Assembly: GCF_009906835.1 (NCBI RefSeq)
Contig: NZ_CP047652.1
Span: forward strand, 939,001 to 1,003,000
Length of the DNA stretch: 64,000 bases
Reading direction: 5' to 3'
Source: Aristophania vespae
GTDB taxonomy: Bacteria > Pseudomonadota > Alphaproteobacteria > Acetobacterales > Acetobacteraceae
The notes under the pieces were generated by a model. That model was not told the DNA's origin. It ran no database searches and worked only from the letters and a program-made list of their open reading frames with translations. This document shows positions 1,022 to 27,085 of the stretch, in pieces (within the stretch, counting starts at the first letter, position 1; every line of letters starts with the position of its first letter). The position numbers and the translations under genes were made by a program.

Positions 1022-2164
1022 TTGAGGCTTAAACGTCTTACCTTAACTGACTTTCGCAATTATGAAAGATGCGTATGGGAGCCTAAAGCTCCCATCGCTG
1101 TCCTTACAGGCGAGAATGGAAGCGGGAAGACAAACCTCTTAGAGGCTATTTCGCTTTTATCTCCCGGGCGGGGGTTGCGTAACGCGCCTTTAAACCAATT
1201 TTACCGACAAAATGCGCCGCACTCTCAAACAGTACAATGGGGCATTGCAGCACAGCTTGAAAATAGGGGGCAAGAATTTTCGCTCTCAACTGGCTCTCAA
1301 CCGCGTGCCACAACGCAGCTTTCACACACTAAAAATGCCAGACGTGTTTTTTTAATTGATGGTGAAGCCAAACGGAACCAAAGCGAAATAGCCGCAATAG
1401 CCAGATGCGTTTGGCTAACGCCTCAAATGGACCGCTTATTTACAGAAACAACCTCTGGGCGAAGACGCTTTTTTGACAGGCTTGTAATGGGCTTATACCC
1501 TGACCATGCCTCTCAAATGGCCGCACATGAGCGTTCTGTTATGAGCCGGAACCGACTATTAACAACGCCTCATCCCGATGCGCTATGGCTTAATTCTATT
1601 GAGGAATCAATAAGCCGCCATGCCGTTGCGGCTACGGCAGCACGCATGTCCTTTATAGAACGCATGAATGGTCTCTCTCTTTTTGAAAAAGACTTTCCCT
1701 GCACAAATATCATTATTCATTGCGAAATTGCAGCACTTTTAAAAAATCATCCTGCTTTATATGTTGAGGACTGGTTACGTGAGCAGCTAAAAACCTCACG
1801 CGAGACAGATGCCGAAAAAGCTTCAACCTCGTACGGGGTTCATAAAAGCGACTTTTCATTAATTGACAGAGCAACAAAGCGATCTGCTGCATTATCCAGC
1901 TCTGGACAACAAAAATTAATGCTTCTTGGCGTTATTTTACATCAAGCTTTGTTAGTGCATGAAACATGGGGAACAATGCCTTTTCTCTTGCTTGATGAAC
2001 CTTTGGTGCATTTGGATAAAAGCAAAAGAGGCGCTTTGCTCACCACGCTCACTCACCTAAAAAGCAACGTCTTTTTAACCGGCACTGAATATGAAAATTT
2101 TGAGCCAATAAAATCACAAGCCGCATTTTACACCGTTAAAAATGGTTTTATTCAGTCTCGATAA
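1022..2164 (+). CDS. recF: DNA replication and repair protein RecF
   Basis: SMC-like ATPase that helps load RecA at single-strand gaps through RecFOR. The 380-residue length is normal. Walker A is GENGSGKT at residues 30-37, the ABC-type signature is SSSGQQK near residue 292, and Walker B is LLLDEP near 322-327 followed by the D-loop. The N-terminal LTLTDFRNY is typical of RecF. The start is TTG at 1022, only 21 bases after dnaN, with GAGAG just upstream; no in-frame ATG fits the conserved N-terminus. It is probably cotranscribed with dnaN. The gene is normally followed closely by gyrB, but here 4.8 kb of repeat-rich DNA separates them. Confidence 0.96.
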   Translation: MRLKRLTLTDFRNYERCVWEPKAPIAVLTGENGSGKTNLLEAISLLSPGRGLRNAPLNQFYRQNAPHSQTVQWGIAAQLENRGQEFSLSTGSQPRATTQLSHTKNARRVFLIDGEAKRNQSEIAAIARCVWLTPQMDRLFTETTSGRRRFFDRLVMGLYPDHASQMAAHERSVMSRNRLLTTPHPDALWLNSIEESISRHAVAATAARMSFIERMNGLSLFEKDFPCTNIIIHCEIAALLKNHPALYVEDWLREQLKTSRETDAEKASTSYGVHKSDFSLIDRATKRSAALSSSGQQKLMLLGVILHQALLVHETWGTMPFLLLDEPLVHLDKSKRGALLTTLTHLKSNVFLTGTEYENFEPIKSQAAFYTVKNGFIQSR

Positions 2165-2377
2165 GATATTTATCGCTGCTCTAACCCCCTTAAAAATTAA
2201 AGGGAAAATTAGCTTTTTCACCCCCTTAGCCTTTGCAAAATTCAGACTCATCTTACGAACTTAATTTTTTAAAACTCACTTCGTTAAGAAGAAATTTCAA
2301 CTTTCTTTATAGCTGATAACAGCCTTAATCCTGCAAAATATCTGCCTTAAAAACAGGCAAAATAATCGGTAACTTTC

Positions 2378-2407
2378 TTGACAAGGAATTTCCCTTTATA
2401 TAACAAT
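2378..2407 (+). promoter_or_regulatory. Putative CRISPR leader promoter
   Basis: A perfect -35 hexamer TTGACA (2378-2383) is followed by an AT-rich stretch giving TATAAC at 2399-2404 (15-bp spacing) or TAACAA at 2401-2406 (17-bp spacing). Transcription would begin close to 2413, just before the first repeat at 2422. The surrounding 2165-2421 is AT-rich and has no gene, as expected for a CRISPR leader. The position is seen in the sequence; the promoter function is inferred. Confidence 0.5.
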
Positions 2408-2421
2408 AATTTCCAGCAAGA

Positions 2422-2754
2422 GTGTTCCCCGCGCGTGCGGGGATGAACCGGGTAACGATCAGGAGCGCGGGAGTTTGTAGAGGTGTTCCCCGCGCGTGCG
2501 GGGATGAACCTTTCTGTGCCAATAGTGATGCGTTGTATTGAGCGTGTTCCCCGCGCGTGCGGGGATGAACCACTGACACTAGACGCAACGGAAGACGCGC
2601 TCTGGTGTTCCCCGCGCGTGCGGGGATGAACCTTTAATCCGTTTTTCTCCCGGTAATCCTCAAAAGTGTTCCTCGCGCATGCGGGGATGAACCAAACTCA
2701 TTGCTGGTTACGCGTCCACAACTGGCATGTTTTTCGCTTATGCGATGATGAATC
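2422..2754 (+). CRISPR. Short type I-E-like CRISPR array, no cas genes in window
   Basis: Five repeats start at 2422, 2483, 2544, 2605 and 2666, exactly 61 bases apart. The 28-29 bp unit begins GTGTTCCCC, contains the GCGCGTGC loop and ends GGGGATGAACC, forming the CCCCGC/GCGGGG hairpin typical of type I-E repeats. Spacers are 32-33 bases and all different. Repeats 1-4 are identical over 28 bases, repeat 5 has two changes (CCCC to CCTC, CGTG to CATG), and a sixth, strongly decayed copy lies in register at 2727-2754 (18 of 28 matches). Decay at the right end and the promoter-like left flank place the leader on the left. No cas1, cas2, cas3 or Cascade gene is visible within 61 kb downstream, so the array is remote from, or has lost, its cas operon. 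Confidence 0.95.
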
Positions 2755-2978
2755 TTTTTCACTGGAAAATGGGTTAAATCCCTCATCATGTTCTAAATTA
2801 CCATTTTTATTTTGCTATACATAAACAAGTTTCATAGTTTGAACAAACAGACCACGAGCAGAGTGGCCTAAAGAAGCTGCTATAATTTATGTCTGACAAA
2901 ATATTTTTTAAATCTCGCAAAAAACAAAGGTAAATAGCTATTTTTATGGCCATAATTTAATGGCCTTATGTGTAATGA

Positions 2979-3055
2979 AAAGCACAAAGCACAAAGCACA
3001 AAGCACAAAGCACAAAGCACAAAGCACAAAGCACAAAGCACAAAGCACAAAGCAC
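2979..3055. repeat. 11 perfect copies of heptamer AAAGCAC
   Basis: A perfect head-to-tail 7-bp array of 11 units with unrelated AT-rich sequence on both sides. It lies between the CRISPR array and the 135-bp repeats. The heptamer length would shift any frame, and no gene covers it. Perfect short arrays like this change copy number by slippage. Confidence 0.97.
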
Positions 3056-3177
3056 AAGAATAAAATGCTTAAAACTAATTAAAAGCAACAAATTACTGAA
3101 AAGCAGCTACAAAAAAGCTTCTGAAAAACAACTCTAAATCACATTTTTTTGCACTAAAAGAATCAGCCAAAACTAAA

Positions 3178-4115
3178 CTGTTGCCCGCACATTTTGCAGA
3201 GCCATTTACCTGCCTGACAAAACCATCTTTCACGTTTCAAATCAGGAAACGAAGTAGCACTTTGAGCTAGCGAAAATAATACCAGCTTTTAAAAAGAACT
3301 ACCCTAAACCTAGCTGTTGACCGCACATTTTGCGGGGCTATTTACCCGCCTGACAAAACCATCTTCCACGTTTCAAATCAGGAAACGAAGCAGCACTTTG
3401 ATCTAGCAAAATTATTACCAGCTCTAAAAAGAATTAGCCTTAACTTAGCTGTTAATTGCACATTTTGCAGAGCCATTTACCTGCTTGGAAAAACTAACCT
3501 CCACGTTTCAAATCAGGAAACGAAGCAGTGCATTGAGCTAGCGAAAATAATACCAGCTCTAAAAGAGCTACCCTAAACTCACCTGTTAACCGCACATTTT
3601 GCAGGGCTATTTACCCACCTGACAAAACCATCTTCCACGTTCCAAATCAGGAAACGAAGTAGCACTTTGAGCTAGCGAAATTACTACCAGCTCTAAAAAG
3701 AACTACCCTAAACCTAGCTGTTGACCGCACATTTTGCGGGGCTATTTACCCGCCTGACAAAACCATCTTTCACGTTTCAAATCAGGAAACGAAGCAGCAC
3801 TTTGATCTAGCAAAATTATTACCAGCTCTAAAAAGAGCTACCCTAAACTCACCTGTTGACCGCATATTTTGCAGGGCTATTTACTCGCTTAATAAAACTA
3901 ACCTCCACGTTCCAAATCAGGAAACAACGCAGCGCATTGAGCTAGCAAAATTATTACCAGCTTTAAAAAGAACTGGCCTAAACTTAGCTGTTAATTGCAC
4001 ATTTTGCAGGGCCATTTACCTGCCTGATAAAACTAACTCACACGTTCCAAATCAAAAAATAACGCAGCACTTTGACCTAGCAAAAATTATTACTAGCTTT
4101 ATTGGGCCAGAATAA
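3178..4115 (+). repeat. Seven tandem copies of a ~135-bp unit with periodic open frame
   Basis: Units begin with CTGTT at 3178, 3314, 3449, 3583, 3718, 3853 and 3988 (spacings 136, 135, 134, 135, 135, 135). Each contains the landmark CACATTTTGC or a near copy, the hairpin CGTTTC-AAATCAG-GAAACG, and GAGCTAGC or GATCTAGC. Copies differ by scattered substitutions, so the array is old. Because 135 is 45 codons, one plus-strand frame runs open through successive units. From 3663 to the TAA at 4113-4115 it is stop-free for 150 codons and reads as 45-residue repeats containing TFCRAIY and DLAKLLPALKR. No ATG, GTG or TTG starts this frame, and TAG interrupts units 1 and 4 at the same codon. I do not recognise the repeat. 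It is either the remains of a repeat-protein gene or a non-coding satellite. Confidence 0.9.
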
Positions 4116-4649
4116 TTTTTGAATTTTTTATAAAACAAAAATGGAATATTCATTTGATGGCGATGATTTATGAGTCATTTTCAAAAGAAAACCCCAAAAG
4201 AGGGAGTTTTCAAAACAAGCGATAATTAATTACGAAAAATTCAGCCTCCAAAATTGGAGCTGCAAAAAACAAAACACTAAAAAGTGATATTCAAAAAACA
4301 GCAAAAAACAGACCCGAGTACATCATTCATAAAAAAATGAGAATTTTATAAAACACAAAAAACAGGCAGCTTAACATTGGCAACATCAAAGCTTTTTTAG
4401 ACATATTTGTTCTTGAAATAAAAAAGACTTGGGCTGTGTAGGGGGTGTTTTTGAGGTGTTTTATAATGTGGTTTTTATCTGCCATGCCGAGTTAATTTTT
4501 TGCACGAATCGGTATGTTTTTGGATGTTTAGCAAATTTTTAATAATGACCGCTAAGTATAATTCTAATAAAAATAATTTATGATTTGTTAATTTTAAAAA
4601 GAAAAAACGCTCTTGACGGATATGAAGTAATAGTTCTATCCAAAAAGCA
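4116..4649. other. AT-rich non-coding stretch
   Basis: No gene, RNA or clear repeat was recognised here. It is very AT-rich with many A-runs and lies between the 135-bp array and the first hairpin element. A 66-residue minus-strand open frame crosses it but has no family resemblance. Confidence 0.5.
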
Positions 4650-4691
4650 GGCCGCAAGAGTGTTGACGCACTCAAGCGGCCCTAACCGCAA
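4642..4691 (-). terminator. Terminator-like hairpin element, left copy
   Basis: On the minus strand this reads TTGCGGTTAG, then a stem GGCCGC-TT-GAGTG with a 6-base loop, CACTC-TT-GCGGCC, then TGCTTTTT. Stem arms are at 4650-4655 and 4676-4681 (outer), 4658-4662 and 4669-4673 (inner). The hairpin plus T-run suggests Rho-independent termination of leftward transcripts. The same element, inverted, recurs at 6642-6692. It lies 30 bases upstream of the start of the unknown gene at 4721. Confidence 0.6.
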
Positions 4692-4720
4692 CCGTCCTTT
4701 GGAATAGAAAGGAACTGGCC

Positions 4721-5137
4721 ATGGCTAACCCTGGTGGTAGCATGTCTTATAGTGTCATTTCTAGTGGCTTTTCACCATTAGAACGCTATTCATCACAATT
4801 TTACGATGCCCCTGCAAATTTATTTTCCTATTACGTAACAATTTATATTAAGACACGCATCTACTTCCGAACGAAAAAAGAGGTTTTAGAAAGGCGCTAT
4901 GGTCGCGGCGCAATCTCTTTATTTCGGTTTCTTCGGAAGTCAGACATAATCCCACATTCATCTTTTTCAACTCATGGTTGTAAAATGGCAAGCCACTTTA
5001 CCAAACTCGCTGTTCAAGCCATTAGCGCAGGCTCGTTTGGTGTTTGGCAAGACTCTTATAGAAGGCTCTACTTCTCTAAGATTTTTGAGCCATTTAAGGC
5101 CTATGAGCAAAAAAAGATGATGAAAGGAATTTCATAA
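4721..5137 (+). CDS. Hypothetical protein, 138 residues
   Basis: I do not recognise this protein. It is 138 residues, basic and rich in aromatic residues (Tyr and Phe), with no signal peptide, no clear membrane segment and no catalytic motif. Support for a real gene is a good ribosome binding site, AAAGGA at 4708-4713, seven bases before the ATG, and an open frame longer than expected in AT-rich DNA. The stop codon sits on the left edge of a nested stem-loop (5137-5215) that could end the transcript. It is isolated: the nearest genes are recF and gyrB, each nearly 2 kb or more away. It lies between two inverted copies of a hairpin element, which could mark it as inserted DNA, but I see no transposase motif. 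Confidence 0.5.
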   Translation: MANPGGSMSYSVISSGFSPLERYSSQFYDAPANLFSYYVTIYIKTRIYFRTKKEVLERRYGRGAISLFRFLRKSDIIPHSSFSTHGCKMASHFTKLAVQAISAGSFGVWQDSYRRLYFSKIFEPFKAYEQKKMMKGIS

Positions 5138-5215
5138 GATAAGGCGGTTATCGTAAAATTGGGCCATGAGAGATAGTCTCTCTCATGGTCTGGGTTGCTG
5201 ATAAACGCCTTATCT
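5137..5215 (+). other. 79-nt nested stem-loop after the 4721 gene
   Basis: The outer arms AGATAAGGCG (5137-5146) and CGCCTTATCT (5206-5215) are perfectly complementary. They continue imperfectly (GTTATC with GATAAA). Inside is a perfect 10-bp hairpin, CCATGAGAGA (5164-5173) with TCTCTCATGG (5179-5188) around a 5-base loop. No strong T-run follows, so it is not a textbook terminator. It may be a structured 3' end, a small RNA or a cruciform site. The structure is seen directly; the function is unknown. Confidence 0.6.
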
Positions 5216-6130
5216 GGACTGAAAAATCATTCTGAATTGAAAAAGAATGATGCCGTTTTTTAAGACAAATTTTTCTCAAAATTAAAGTGGTTTTCAACCA
5301 CCACAAAAATTATCACTATTACTGCTCAGTAATACGTCAGCTTTGAAAAAATGTTTAGCTTTTCACGTTAGGTGTGAGTTTCGCTAAGCTTGAACGAGTG
5401 AATACGAAGTTAGAACCATATATTTCTTATAGCTGAGATAGTTCTTAGATATAAAAAAATCACCATCGCTTTTTAACCCGAGTGGTCTTCGAAAAAAGCG
5501 TTAGCTTTGGCGAAGTAAGTTTAGATTTTGCAAAGCTTGAGCGGGTGAAAAAAGCTATTTTACACCTTTTATTTTTTTACTAAATTAAACTAGTAATAAA
5601 TATTCTATTACACTAAATAAAAAAGTTTTTTTACAATGTAAAATGTGGAATGCGTTTCATGTAAAAATTTTATTTTAATATAGGTTAATATCACGCTGTT
5701 TTTTACAGTAGAGAATTCTAATTTAACGAAGTTAAGTCATTTAAAATAAGGAATTTTGAGCAGAATAACAGTTTTTTCCTTTATGTAGTCTGTGTTGACA
5801 CTAAAAGGCTAAAATAAAAGATCGATGATAAAAAATTATATTTATAAAAAAGAATTATCCTAAACTTCCATAACTGGCTCTTTTTGTTTTTATATGCCGA
5901 TAAAAGAAACAATGTCAGCGCGTGAGGCAAGAGCTAAGACAAATTGAGTAATTAGCGGCTATAGAAGTTCCACGATGTTTTATATCTAAAATGAAATGCG
6001 GCCCATTTAATGGGAAGTGGGATATAAGATGTAAGATATGGGATATACTGGTTATCCGACCTCCTATGAGACCGGCTCCAATTATTGGAGCTTTGAGGAT
6101 AGCAGTTCTAAAATTTAAGCGACTATAGAG
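5216..6130. other. AT-rich non-coding stretch
   Basis: No gene was recognised. Two similar 17-base words, AAGCTTGAACGAGTGAA (5386-5402) and AAGCTTGAGCGGGTGAA (5533-5549), lie about 147 bases apart inside weakly similar surroundings, suggesting an old direct duplication. The rest is very AT-rich. Confidence 0.4.
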
Positions 6131-6206
6131 TATGGATTCCAAAGAAATTGAGGTGGCAGGGCTTCTGGTAATTTGGTTAATCTCATTTTAGCCCAGGAGC
6201 GTTGCG
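6131..6206 (+). pseudogene. Short duplicated fragment of gyrB
   Basis: This stretch matches gyrB 9092-9166 closely: TATGGATTCCAAAGA, then TGGTAATTTGGTTAATC and TCATTTTAGCCCAGG are shared. It carries a 2-base insertion (GGGCTTCTGG against GGGCCTGG) and several substitutions, so it cannot encode the GyrB segment. It lies 0.73 kb upstream of the gyrB start and ends shortly before the octamer array. It is a relic of a rearrangement or partial duplication of the gyrB 3' region. Confidence 0.85.
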
Positions 6207-6249
6207 ATTTGGTTTTGGCTTTTATTAAAGCAATGCACAAGCAAGGTAA

Positions 6250-6503
6250 GGGTATAAGGGTATAAGGGTATAAGGGTATAAGGGTATAAGGGTATAAGGG
6301 TATAAGGGTATAAGGGTATAAGGGTATAAGGGTATAAGGGTATAAGGGTATAAGGGTATAAGGGTATAAGGGTATAAGGGTATAAGGGTATAAGGGTATA
6401 AGGGTATAAGGGTATAAGGGTATAAGGGTATAAGGGTATAAGGGTATAAGGGTATAAGGGTATAAGGGTATAAGGGTATAAGGGTATAAGGGTATAAGGG
6501 TAA
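6250..6503. repeat. 31 copies of octamer GGGTATAA
   Basis: A perfect head-to-tail array of 31 full 8-bp units (6250-6497) plus a partial unit. On the minus strand it keeps a frame open that would read LIPLYPYT repeatedly, but this follows simply from the period and is not evidence of a gene. A second array at 16229-16380 has the unit GGCTATAA, one base different. Confidence 0.97.
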
Positions 6504-6641
6504 GGCAATAGGTGAAAAAGCTTTTTAATCAAAAATAATATTATTTCTTTTAAATAAAAATAAAGTACTAGAAACGTCTTTGTGAAAATGCTAACAATAT
6601 TGTTAGCCGCAATGATATATATATTTAAAATCGAGAGAAGA

Positions 6642-6692
6642 TTGCGGTTAGGGCCGCTTGAGTGTTGCTGCACTCTTGCAGGCCTGTTTTTT
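6642..6692 (+). terminator. Terminator-like hairpin element, right copy
   Basis: The plus strand reads TTGCGGTTAG, stem GGCCGC (6652-6657) and GAGTG (6660-6664), loop TTGCTG, CACTC (6671-6675), GCAGGCC (6678-6684), then TGTTTTTT. It looks like a Rho-independent terminator shielding gyrB from upstream transcription. It is an inverted near-copy of 4642-4691: flank, both stems and T-run are conserved while the loop differs. Confidence 0.7.
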
Positions 6693-6939
6693 ATAAATTT
6701 ATTGCTTAATAGTCAGTGAGTGGCTAATGCTTTTTTCTCTTACCTGATTTTAAAAATATTTTTACTAGGGCCATATTTGCCGACATCATGGCGGCTTTGT
6801 CATACTGACAGGCCAAATGAGACATTAAGTTGCGTTATGAAAGCCGGCTTAATTAAGCGGGCGAACAGACTGGCTAAAATATAAAAATCACTCTATATTG
6901 AGCGTAATTTTTGGACCGTTATTGGAGTGATGCGCAGGC

Positions 6940-9383
<2,444 letters not shown>

Positions 9384-9423
9384 GCCACAGCATTAGGGTT
9401 TAACTAGTTCGATACCAAAAAAC

Positions 9424-9698
9424 ATGCTCTGTGAGACAATGTCAAAAGGACTAATGGAAGAGCTTAATAAAGTTCTGAAATTAGGCCTGTTAGGCTGTTA
9501 TCTTGCGGAGCCTTTTATAGATTATGGCACTCTCTTTAATCTACCCCGCTGGCCTTACCTGGCTAAATGTTAAAAGACATGTTCTGTAAGGCTAGCTTAA
9601 AGAGACTGATGGACTTACTTAAGAATAAAGTTTTGAAACTGGACTTATTAGGCGGTTATCTTGCGGGATTCTTTATAGATTTCGGTGCTGTTTTTTAA
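9424..9698 (+). pseudogene. Two decayed tandem copies of the N-terminal leader of the next gene
   Basis: Copy 1 (open frame 9424-9573, 49 codons) and copy 2 (9567-9698, 43 codons) resemble the first 40 or so codons of the gene at 9726. All share the pattern ML(C/F)..., LKN(K)VLKL, LGCYLAG or LGGYLAG. Aligned ATGs fall at 9424, 9579 and 9738, so the unit is about 155-159 bases. Copies 1 and 2 then run into stops (TAA at 9571 and 9696) instead of continuing into the mature protein. Each unit boundary has the same TAAATGTTAAAAG junction. These look like tandem duplications of the signal-peptide region, not separate proteins, although both short frames are still open. Confidence 0.75.
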
Positions 9699-9725
9699 TC
9701 TGGCTAGCTGGCCTTATTCGGTTAA

Positions 9726-10712
9726 ATGTTAAAAGACATGCTTTGCAAGGCGACTTTAAAAGGACTAACGGAAGTGCTTAAAAATAAAGTTCTGAAATTA
9801 AGCCTATTTGGCTGTTATCTTGCAGGGTCTTTTATGGCTTCAGCTGCTGTGTCTCGCAGTTTTGCACAGACGATGCCCGCTCATATAACAAATTCAAAAG
9901 TTCCAGAGACAGACTCACAAACTAAAAATAGTGCTGTCACATTACGCTATGCAGTATTTGTGCATGGCCTTCATGTTTTGGATGCAGAAGGCGCTTATGT
10001 TCTCAAGCCTTGGGGATATGGCGGTAATGCACATTTAAAAACTGTTGGTTTAGCAAGCTGGTTTTTACAGCTAAATATTTCTGCTCAGGTTGAAGGACGG
10101 TTTGACGGTACTATGGCTGTACCGCTTGATTATAAAGCTCATGGTCTTTCACGCAAAAAAGAACGTAGCGTTCATATTAAATTTGACGATTCCGGCCCTC
10201 ATATCGTTAGTCTGGAGCCCAAGGACAAAGAGCGTGATCCTTTGCCAGAAGCAGAGCTAAAGCATTCCATTGATATGCTTAGCGGTCTTGCGACCCTGTT
10301 CCAGTCTTTAGCCGTAACGGGCAAGTGTGATCTTTCTGGTACTTTATATGATGGTTTGCGTTTAACTCATATAGAGGCGCATGGTCCTTTTGCTGATAAA
10401 GTTCCCGATAGTCATGGGTCTTATTATTCGGGCAAAGAAGCGCAAAGATGTGATTTTGAAGGTCATCAAATTGCAGGATTTGTAAAAACCTCTCATCACA
10501 AAGATCTTTTACGCACGCCACAACCTGGAAAAGCCTGGTTTTTAACCTTAAAAGATTATGGCATTGTGCCAGTAAAAATTGAATTTCATCATCCTAAAAT
10601 TGGGAATGTTGAAATGGTTATGCAATCAGTTCCGTCTTCGGCCAAAATGGATGTTCCTGGCAAAAAAGGGCAGATGACATCTCCTTCTGAAAAGCCTCAG
10701 ACAAAGCCCTAA
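9726..10712 (+). CDS. Secreted DUF3108-like protein
   Basis: Probable exported protein of 328 residues (324 from the second ATG at 9738). The N-terminus has basic residues, a hydrophobic stretch (about residues 24-45, LSLFGCYLAGSF then ASAAV) and a likely cleavage after SFAQ. The mature part (LRYAVFVHGLHV..., a long beta-rich middle, then a C-terminal P-V-K-I-E-F stretch) resembles the DUF3108 family of periplasmic proteins common in alphaproteobacteria; this is a pattern match only. No catalytic motif is visible and the function is unknown. It lies 27 bases upstream of glmU on the same strand and may share its transcript. Two decayed copies of its leader precede it. Confidence 0.75.
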   Translation: MLKDMLCKATLKGLTEVLKNKVLKLSLFGCYLAGSFMASAAVSRSFAQTMPAHITNSKVPETDSQTKNSAVTLRYAVFVHGLHVLDAEGAYVLKPWGYGGNAHLKTVGLASWFLQLNISAQVEGRFDGTMAVPLDYKAHGLSRKKERSVHIKFDDSGPHIVSLEPKDKERDPLPEAELKHSIDMLSGLATLFQSLAVTGKCDLSGTLYDGLRLTHIEAHGPFADKVPDSHGSYYSGKEAQRCDFEGHQIAGFVKTSHHKDLLRTPQPGKAWFLTLKDYGIVPVKIEFHHPKIGNVEMVMQSVPSSAKMDVPGKKGQMTSPSEKPQTKP

Positions 10713-15662: not shown

Positions 15663-16228
15663 TTCGGTTCCTGGTTTTTTAAACTAAACTGTAAAATTTT
15701 AAGCCGTAAAATATATTAGACTAAATTTTAAAATTATCACATTAACCAAAAATCATATAAAGAGAACATTTTATACTATGTTACTAAAAGCTATTTTTAA
15801 AATAGGCTTATTAAGTAATGACCATTTTTCAGCGTTAAGAAGAATATTATATTGTGATTTTAATTAGGAAACAGACATAGTATTACAAAAAATATTTTAA
15901 ATAATTCTATCTCAATTTTTTAAAATTTTATTACAATGAAATTTCTGATTTTGAATATTGTTGTATATTTTTAATCTGTAAATTTATTTTTGGTAATTTC
16001 AATTTATTACTATGATTATAAATGATATTGATATTCATTCTTTCTTTTAATCTAAAGCCTAAACTTACTATTTTGTTGCTCTTTATATTCACGGTTAATT
16101 TAGCATCAAGATATAATTATAAACCCTTGTCATAGTTATTATCTTTATTTTTCTGCTAATTTCTAAAATAACCAGAGGCTAATTTAACTCTAACCTTGGC
16201 GCTTCTGACATATTCAAGCATGCATTAA
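15663..16228. other. Very AT-rich intergenic stretch
   Basis: It separates the divergent GNAT and Fsr-type genes. No gene, RNA or conserved motif was recognised; promoters for both genes are expected here but none stands out. Confidence 0.4.
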
Positions 16229-16380
16229 GGCTATAAGGCTATAAGGCTATAAGGCTATAAGGCTATAAGGCTATAAGGCTATAAGGCTATAAGGCTATAA
16301 GGCTATAAGGCTATAAGGCTATAAGGCTATAAGGCTATAAGGCTATAAGGCTATAAGGCTATAAGGCTATAAGGCTATAA
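16229..16380. repeat. 19 copies of octamer GGCTATAA
   Basis: A perfect array of 19 head-to-tail 8-bp units. It is the same octamer as the 6250-6503 array except for C in place of G at position 3. It lies 170 bases upstream of the Fsr-type transporter start, where copy-number change could alter promoter spacing, though there is no direct evidence of that. Confidence 0.97.
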
Positions 16381-26963: not shown

Positions 26964-27076
26964 CTTTGAACCTTAGCTTTGAACCTTAGCTTTGAACCTT
27001 AGCTTTGAACCTTAGCTTTGAACCTTAGCTTTGAACCTTAGCTTTGGGCTTTGGGCTTTGGGCTTTGGGCTTTGGG
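26964..27076. repeat. Compound tandem array: 6 x 13 bp then 5 x 7 bp
   Basis: Six perfect copies of CTTTGAACCTTAG (26964-27041) continue without a gap into five copies of CTTTGGG (27042-27076). Both units start with CTTTG, so the shorter array seems to have grown out of the edge of the longer one. It ends nine bases from the alr stop codon, so it would be in the alr 3' untranslated region. Confidence 0.95.
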
Positions 27077-27085
27077 CTCAAATAG

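Follow-up and report, generated by a model that had tools for sequence, protein, structure and literature searches.

The nearest described kind of sequence to the array analysed here appears to be the VNTR-type repeat of Wolbachia, where VNTR-141 and VNTR-105 are intergenic head-to-tail arrays of 141- and 105-bp units, according to PMC3287509. There VNTR-141 reaches up to 7.3 copies and varies in copy number between strains, its units are approximately 99% identical, with 15-bp repeats inside them and a hairpin whose stem is 9 bp long, and slippage and concerted evolution are invoked to explain it (PMC3287509). Within the window, by which we mean the whole 64,000-nucleotide stretch of Aristophania vespae DNA that was analysed, seven tandem 135-bp units may be set beside VNTR-141 by description. 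The likeness lies in an intergenic, head-to-tail arrangement in an alphaproteobacterium and in unit lengths of 141, 105 and 135 bp that are all multiples of three. In contrast to VNTR-141, the copies here are more diverged, are known from one strain, and have no more than a short palindrome, which three of them have lost, where VNTR-141 has its hairpin and 15-bp repeats. We read the array as a non-coding intergenic minisatellite of the VNTR type, with a probability of close to 87%, and its long open frame as a by-product. It is undescribed among the matches listed for the literature on bacterial minisatellites and on tandem repeats in insect-associated Acetobacteraceae.

The array consists of head-to-tail copies of a unit longer than about 10 bp and lies outside genes, between recF and gyrB. 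TRF reports it at 3156-4098 with a period of 135, 7.0 copies and 83% matches, and also calls it there with periods of 269 and 404. Anchoring on an 11-mer common to the copies places seven units of approximately 135 bp over 3177-4110, plus a scrap from 3156, with copy-to-copy spacings of 136, 135, 134, 135, 135 and 135 bp. Such an array is far beyond chance. Both the TRF call and the anchored copies bear out the seven tandem repeats of the preliminary description, and the first three spacings confirm the one-base length changes it placed between copies 1 and 2 and between copies 3 and 4. The features are as follows.

3156-3176: scrap of a further unit before copy 1 (TRF start at 3156; 3155-3175 against the unit tail is 76% identical over 21 nt)
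3177-3312: copy 1, 136 bp, with a TAG in the register of the 150-codon frame
3313-3447: copy 2, 135 bp, sharing 99% identity with copy 5 across the first 112 alignment columns
3448-3581: copy 3, 134 bp, a run having one A fewer
3582-3716: copy 4, 135 bp, with a TAG at the codon equivalent to that of copy 1
3717-3851: copy 5, 135 bp
3852-3986: copy 6, 135 bp
3987-4110: copy 7, 3′ end missing, approximately 112 of 135 columns kept
3663-4115, plus strand: stop-to-stop open frame of 150 codons without ATG, GTG or TTG, judged coincidental in view of its lack of coding signal

Pairwise identity among the copies is 79-99% over the first 112 columns, with copies 2 and 5 the closest pair. Three internal indels, of one base each, all fall in A or T runs. 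The array is a single locus in its own genome and no started ORF of at least 60 codons lies over it.

The open frame invites a coding interpretation. As previously noted, 3663-4115 is open from stop to stop, it lacks a start (no ORF of at least 20 codons beginning with ATG, GTG or TTG occurs within it), and copies 1 and 4 share a TAG at one codon. A second stretch in the same register, absent from that earlier account, is open over 3280-3576 for 98 codons. Two stops interrupt this register in the seven copies, and the consensus of the other frames contains 2-7 stops per unit. However, the open frame in the array is not beyond chance, since at least one of the six circular frames is open in 32.5% of 20,000 shuffled 135-mers of consensus composition. 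The counterpoints to a non-coding reading are that this frame has fewer stops than the other five and that the unit length is divisible by three, but both properties are within chance.

Differences between the copies give no indication of coding constraint. The 405 pairwise differences are distributed over codon positions 1, 2 and 3 as 169, 111 and 125, with the first position the highest, and 14 of the 49 distinct changes are synonymous against 16.6 expected. At a dN/dS of 0.3, 14 or fewer synonymous changes of 49 has a probability of approximately 1e-6, and at 0.6 of approximately 0.01, figures that are to be read with the non-independence of the copies in mind, as inter-unit copying weakens the synonymous test. 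Pooled pN/pS (NG86) in the frame of 3663-4115 is 0.65, a value which alone resembles mild constraint, but the frame controls and a permutation null remove that impression. The other five frames give 0.44, 0.95, 0.65, 1.34 and 0.78. When alignment columns are permuted among positions of equal consensus base (1000 permutations), the mean is 0.62 with a 5-95% range of 0.39-0.96, 65.5% of permutations lie at or below the observed value, and 2.7 stop codons are expected where 2 are observed. The lowest ratio, 0.44, belongs to another plus-strand frame that was considered and rejected: its consensus has four stops per unit and its synonymous changes number 19 against 17.2 expected. In copies 1, 2, 5 and 6 that frame repeats a 29-residue reading that begins with TTG.

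Codon usage of the repeat is also unlike that of the genes of the window. The consensus has a codon log-odds of -0.12, within the -0.27 to -0.02 of the other frames, and that of 3663-4112 itself is -0.05. Gene segments have a median of 0.25 and only 2.6% of 190 score down to the level of the consensus, as measured on 45-codon segments from the same 20 window ORFs that trained the score; 38% of 950 wrong-frame segments score as high as the consensus. On codon positions, synonymous counts, NG86 ratios with their controls and log-odds, a coding gene or pseudogene in repeated form is rejected, and the array was very probably no gene while its copies diverged.

That the array is instead a live repeat-protein gene, with an unusual start codon and with indels that are assembly errors in A/T runs, is scarcely credible. 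The position of all three indels in A or T runs is in its favour, and single-base errors in runs may exist in this assembly, where gyrB (6940-9383) falls into two frames, with the break at or close to six consecutive G (7822-7827). As gyrB is essential, that break is probably a homopolymer assembly error, else a real break. For these reasons the single-base indels are the weakest of the non-coding arguments. The substitution tests, however, are independent of the indels and detect no constraint, both TAG codons are themselves substitutions (CAG to TAG), and a TAA at 3174-3176 stands immediately 5′ of copy 1 and in its register, with no start codon.

Neither the DNA nor the peptide appears to have a convincing relative outside this genome in the collections searched. 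Among 100 genomes searched, the DNA of the repeat matches its own and none of the 99 others, and it has no match in plasmids or phages. Of 147 genomes searched, the 45-residue repeat matches none of the 146 besides its own, and it has no match by tblastn in phages or plasmids and none in viral contigs. A five-copy profile run against 294 genomes returns its own genome and only two matches in one other (G279). These are 19-residue matches on one contig with identical matched letters, at E 0.006 and 0.007 per genome, and are not counted as relatives because two to three such matches are expected by chance among 294 genomes. The preliminary description knew of no family with this repeat, and likewise nothing in Pfam passes the cut-off (best E 0.009), NCBIfam gives no match at E up to 1, and neither PHROGs (best E 0.005) nor PDB (best E 0.98) gives a convincing one.

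Within the genome itself, a sequence model of the seven copies, for which 150 of 430 first-look candidates were scored, finds besides the seven a segment at C1:329016-329112 (E 0.011) and another at E 0.445. The former was considered as a diverged copy and taken as chance; it lies in a region that appears on inspection to be coding. With copy 5 as a blastn query at E up to 10, nine extra matches of 14-20 bases are obtained at E 0.24 or worse, and no coding parent of the array was found in the genome.

These results bear on the view that the array is a decayed gene, which we consider unlikely. In that view a 135-bp unit of 45 residues, or else a short repeat protein, would have been coding at first and would have drifted after losing its start. 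One frame is open in all copies save for the two TAG codons and the one-base shifts, and the neighbourhood offers a precedent. A 159-bp array at 9408-9884, beside gyrB, resembles a series of decayed duplicates of the opening portion of the gene at 9726. The final copy in that array forms the start of this apparently intact ORF, whose first part is a signal peptide as judged by eye and which is 66% identical over 298 aligned residues to a gene of Acetobacteraceae bacterium ESL0709. The two arrays are alike in being intergenic, with a long unit divisible by three and a partly open frame. They differ in that the 159-bp array adjoins its apparent coding parent. Against decay stand the divergence of the 135-bp copies without synonymous excess, which leaves the repeated form under no detectable coding constraint, and the lack of a convincing homologue of the unit in 293 other genomes, phages, plasmids and viral contigs or of a convincing match in the four family and structure collections. 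The earlier proposals of a decayed repeat-protein gene or of a gene whose start was lost are thus not sustained, given no synonymous excess, un-gene-like codons and no convincing homologue. The comparison of synonymous with non-synonymous change and the database search of the 45-residue repeat, both of which the earlier account had called for, instead favour its third proposal, a satellite whose open frame reflects shared ancestry, for which it had named the absence of synonymous excess and of an intact homologue as the distinguishing outcome; both absences are what we find within the collections searched. The one unit that founded the array might still have been coding in origin, though nothing here supports this. 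Specifically, it is decidedly unlikely that this unit came from a lineage-restricted protein of approximately 45 residues (AVDRTFCRAIY...LAKLLPALKR), in which case the array would be the relic of an orphan gene.

A functional DNA or RNA element, be it a protein-binding site, a structured RNA, transcription signals or part of a CRISPR locus, is very improbable. A short CGTTTC-GAAACG palindrome is present in copies 1-3 and 5, but it is broken in copies 4, 6 and 7, and the longest invariant run among the copies is 8 columns (p 0.90). The RNA consensus fold of the copies has 22 pairs, two of which are changed on both sides; the RNAalifold covariation term is nevertheless unfavourable (+0.51), the structured RNA is rejected on this fold, and no Rfam family is found in the window at the gathering threshold. 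Terminator-like sites are about three times as frequent in 2100-7000 as in shuffles (14 against 4.3 ± 2.0), three of them on the minus strand inside the array, and a minus-strand promoter-like site with 9 of 12 matches recurs in copies 1, 2, 4 and 5. Promoter-like sites overall show no excess in the same interval (11 against 13.3 expected), and recurrence of such a site is what common ancestry of the copies gives. As consensus matches in repeated, AT-rich DNA, these sites are given little weight, yet they are not explained away and may leave some room for transcription. The CRISPR part of this reading is suggested by a type I-E-like CRISPR array at 2422-2757, approximately 400 bp upstream of the 135-bp array. 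It comprises five repeats and a worn sixth and lies far from the Cse1 gene (C1:405102); four more exact repeats occur at C1:1691481-1692354.

The minisatellite occupies a gap of approximately 4.8 kb, flanked on the left by dnaN and recF and on the right by gyrB in its two pieces, as identified by Pfam domains, in a genome of 2,022,239 bases in two contigs. By RecF, the closest named relative in the genome_contigs collection is ESL0709, at 65% in its best segment. A study of the gut bacteria of stingless bees (PMC10128065) names it together with one other Acetobacteraceae strain, and its text contains neither a description of the array nor the term 'tandem repeat'. Among the first 43 (L006-L048) of 80 fetched RecF loci, the recF-gyrB gap is 76-165 bp in 38, no gyrB is seen in four, and in ESL0709 it is 6,574 bp with other ORFs. 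The spacer thus appears enlarged in both members of the genus compared, with differing contents, and ESL0709 lacks the array, its DNA matches being no longer than 14-24 bases. The array was also considered as a remnant of genes in the recF-gyrB gap of ESL0709 or of other relatives. A tblastn search of the gap and array with 12,360 stop-to-stop frames of at least 40 residues, drawn from relatives' loci up to L048, eleven genome-set loci (L087-L096, L098) and an own-genome stretch (L100), gave a best E of 2.8e-4 (35 residues, 31%), which is at chance level for that number of query frames.

The gap contains further repeated material. A 690-bp segment at 4560-5249 recurs at C1:848790 with 97% identity and has a 138-codon ORF without Pfam, NCBIfam or PHROGs match at E up to 1. 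Two 55-nt segments (4642-4696 and 6637-6691), mutually inverted at 78%, frame a stretch with the 690-bp segment and an octamer array. Units related to an old array of approximately 148 bp at C1:849.6-850.4 kb (L158 9646-10375) occur as two at 5335-5574 and one, inverted, at 2190-2293. This family is much more diverged; it adjoins both copies of the 690-bp segment, and its lone inverted unit lies behind recF. Perfect short arrays are found in the window at 2979-3057, 6247-6502, 16226-16380 and 26964-27078, the units reported by TRF being AAAGCAC x11, TAAGGGTA x32, TAAGGCTA x19, CTTTGAACCTTAG x6 and GCTTTGG x5. More 7- and 8-mer arrays with differing units occur in sampled stretches of the genome. 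These 7- and 8-base units, each with its own sequence, have grown very cleanly.

In the stretches of this genome that were sampled, intergenic tandem growth is common, as several other long-unit arrays occur there. In 606 kb, window included, six others lack a covering ORF of at least 100 aa, with units of 173, 204, 118, 80, 124 and 159 bp, the 124-bp array lying at the edge of a sampled stretch, where an ORF that continues past the edge could be missed. Four of these six have units not divisible by three; counting the 135-bp array, divisibility holds for three of seven, which is close to chance. ORFs contain two more arrays, of 108 and 351 bp.

Across 800-1060 kb, the walked GC skew reaches its peak at C1:963,798 (approximately 24,800 in the window), and sampled skew flips sign on either side. 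This suggests that the replication terminus may lie in the window although dnaN, recF and gyrB are close by. No site within 6 mismatches of a dif consensus occurs in 800-1060 kb, and two 7-mismatch sites are taken as chance. We claim no tie between the array and the terminus, as long arrays are also present at 1.60-1.72 Mb.

Our results are consistent with a model in which a 135-bp stretch was duplicated head to tail and the array then grew and was re-copied in blocks, the machinery presumably being slippage or unequal recombination. Identical tracts of 76 and 66 columns are found at a lag of three units, the longer of which is reached by none of 2000 within-column permutations; among the other five of the six lags tested, only lag 4 stands out, and weakly (p 0.03). 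It is therefore probable that copying or conversion has acted on blocks of units, or that these descend from a common block, and the lag-three tracts do not tell slippage, unequal crossing over and gene conversion apart. The copies would then have drifted as neutral DNA to their present identity. The open frame would persist because all copies descend from one unit that was open by chance in one frame and whose length is a multiple of three. The array is most likely without function for the cell and may survive since the recF-gyrB spacer of this lineage tolerates insertions.

The array stands as a caution that a periodic open frame of 150 codons can result from tandem copying. Together with the 7-, 8- and 13-bp arrays of the window, it may provide markers for strain typing. 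More broadly, as the 159-bp array suggests, this genome may be a fair place to watch the birth of intergenic arrays.
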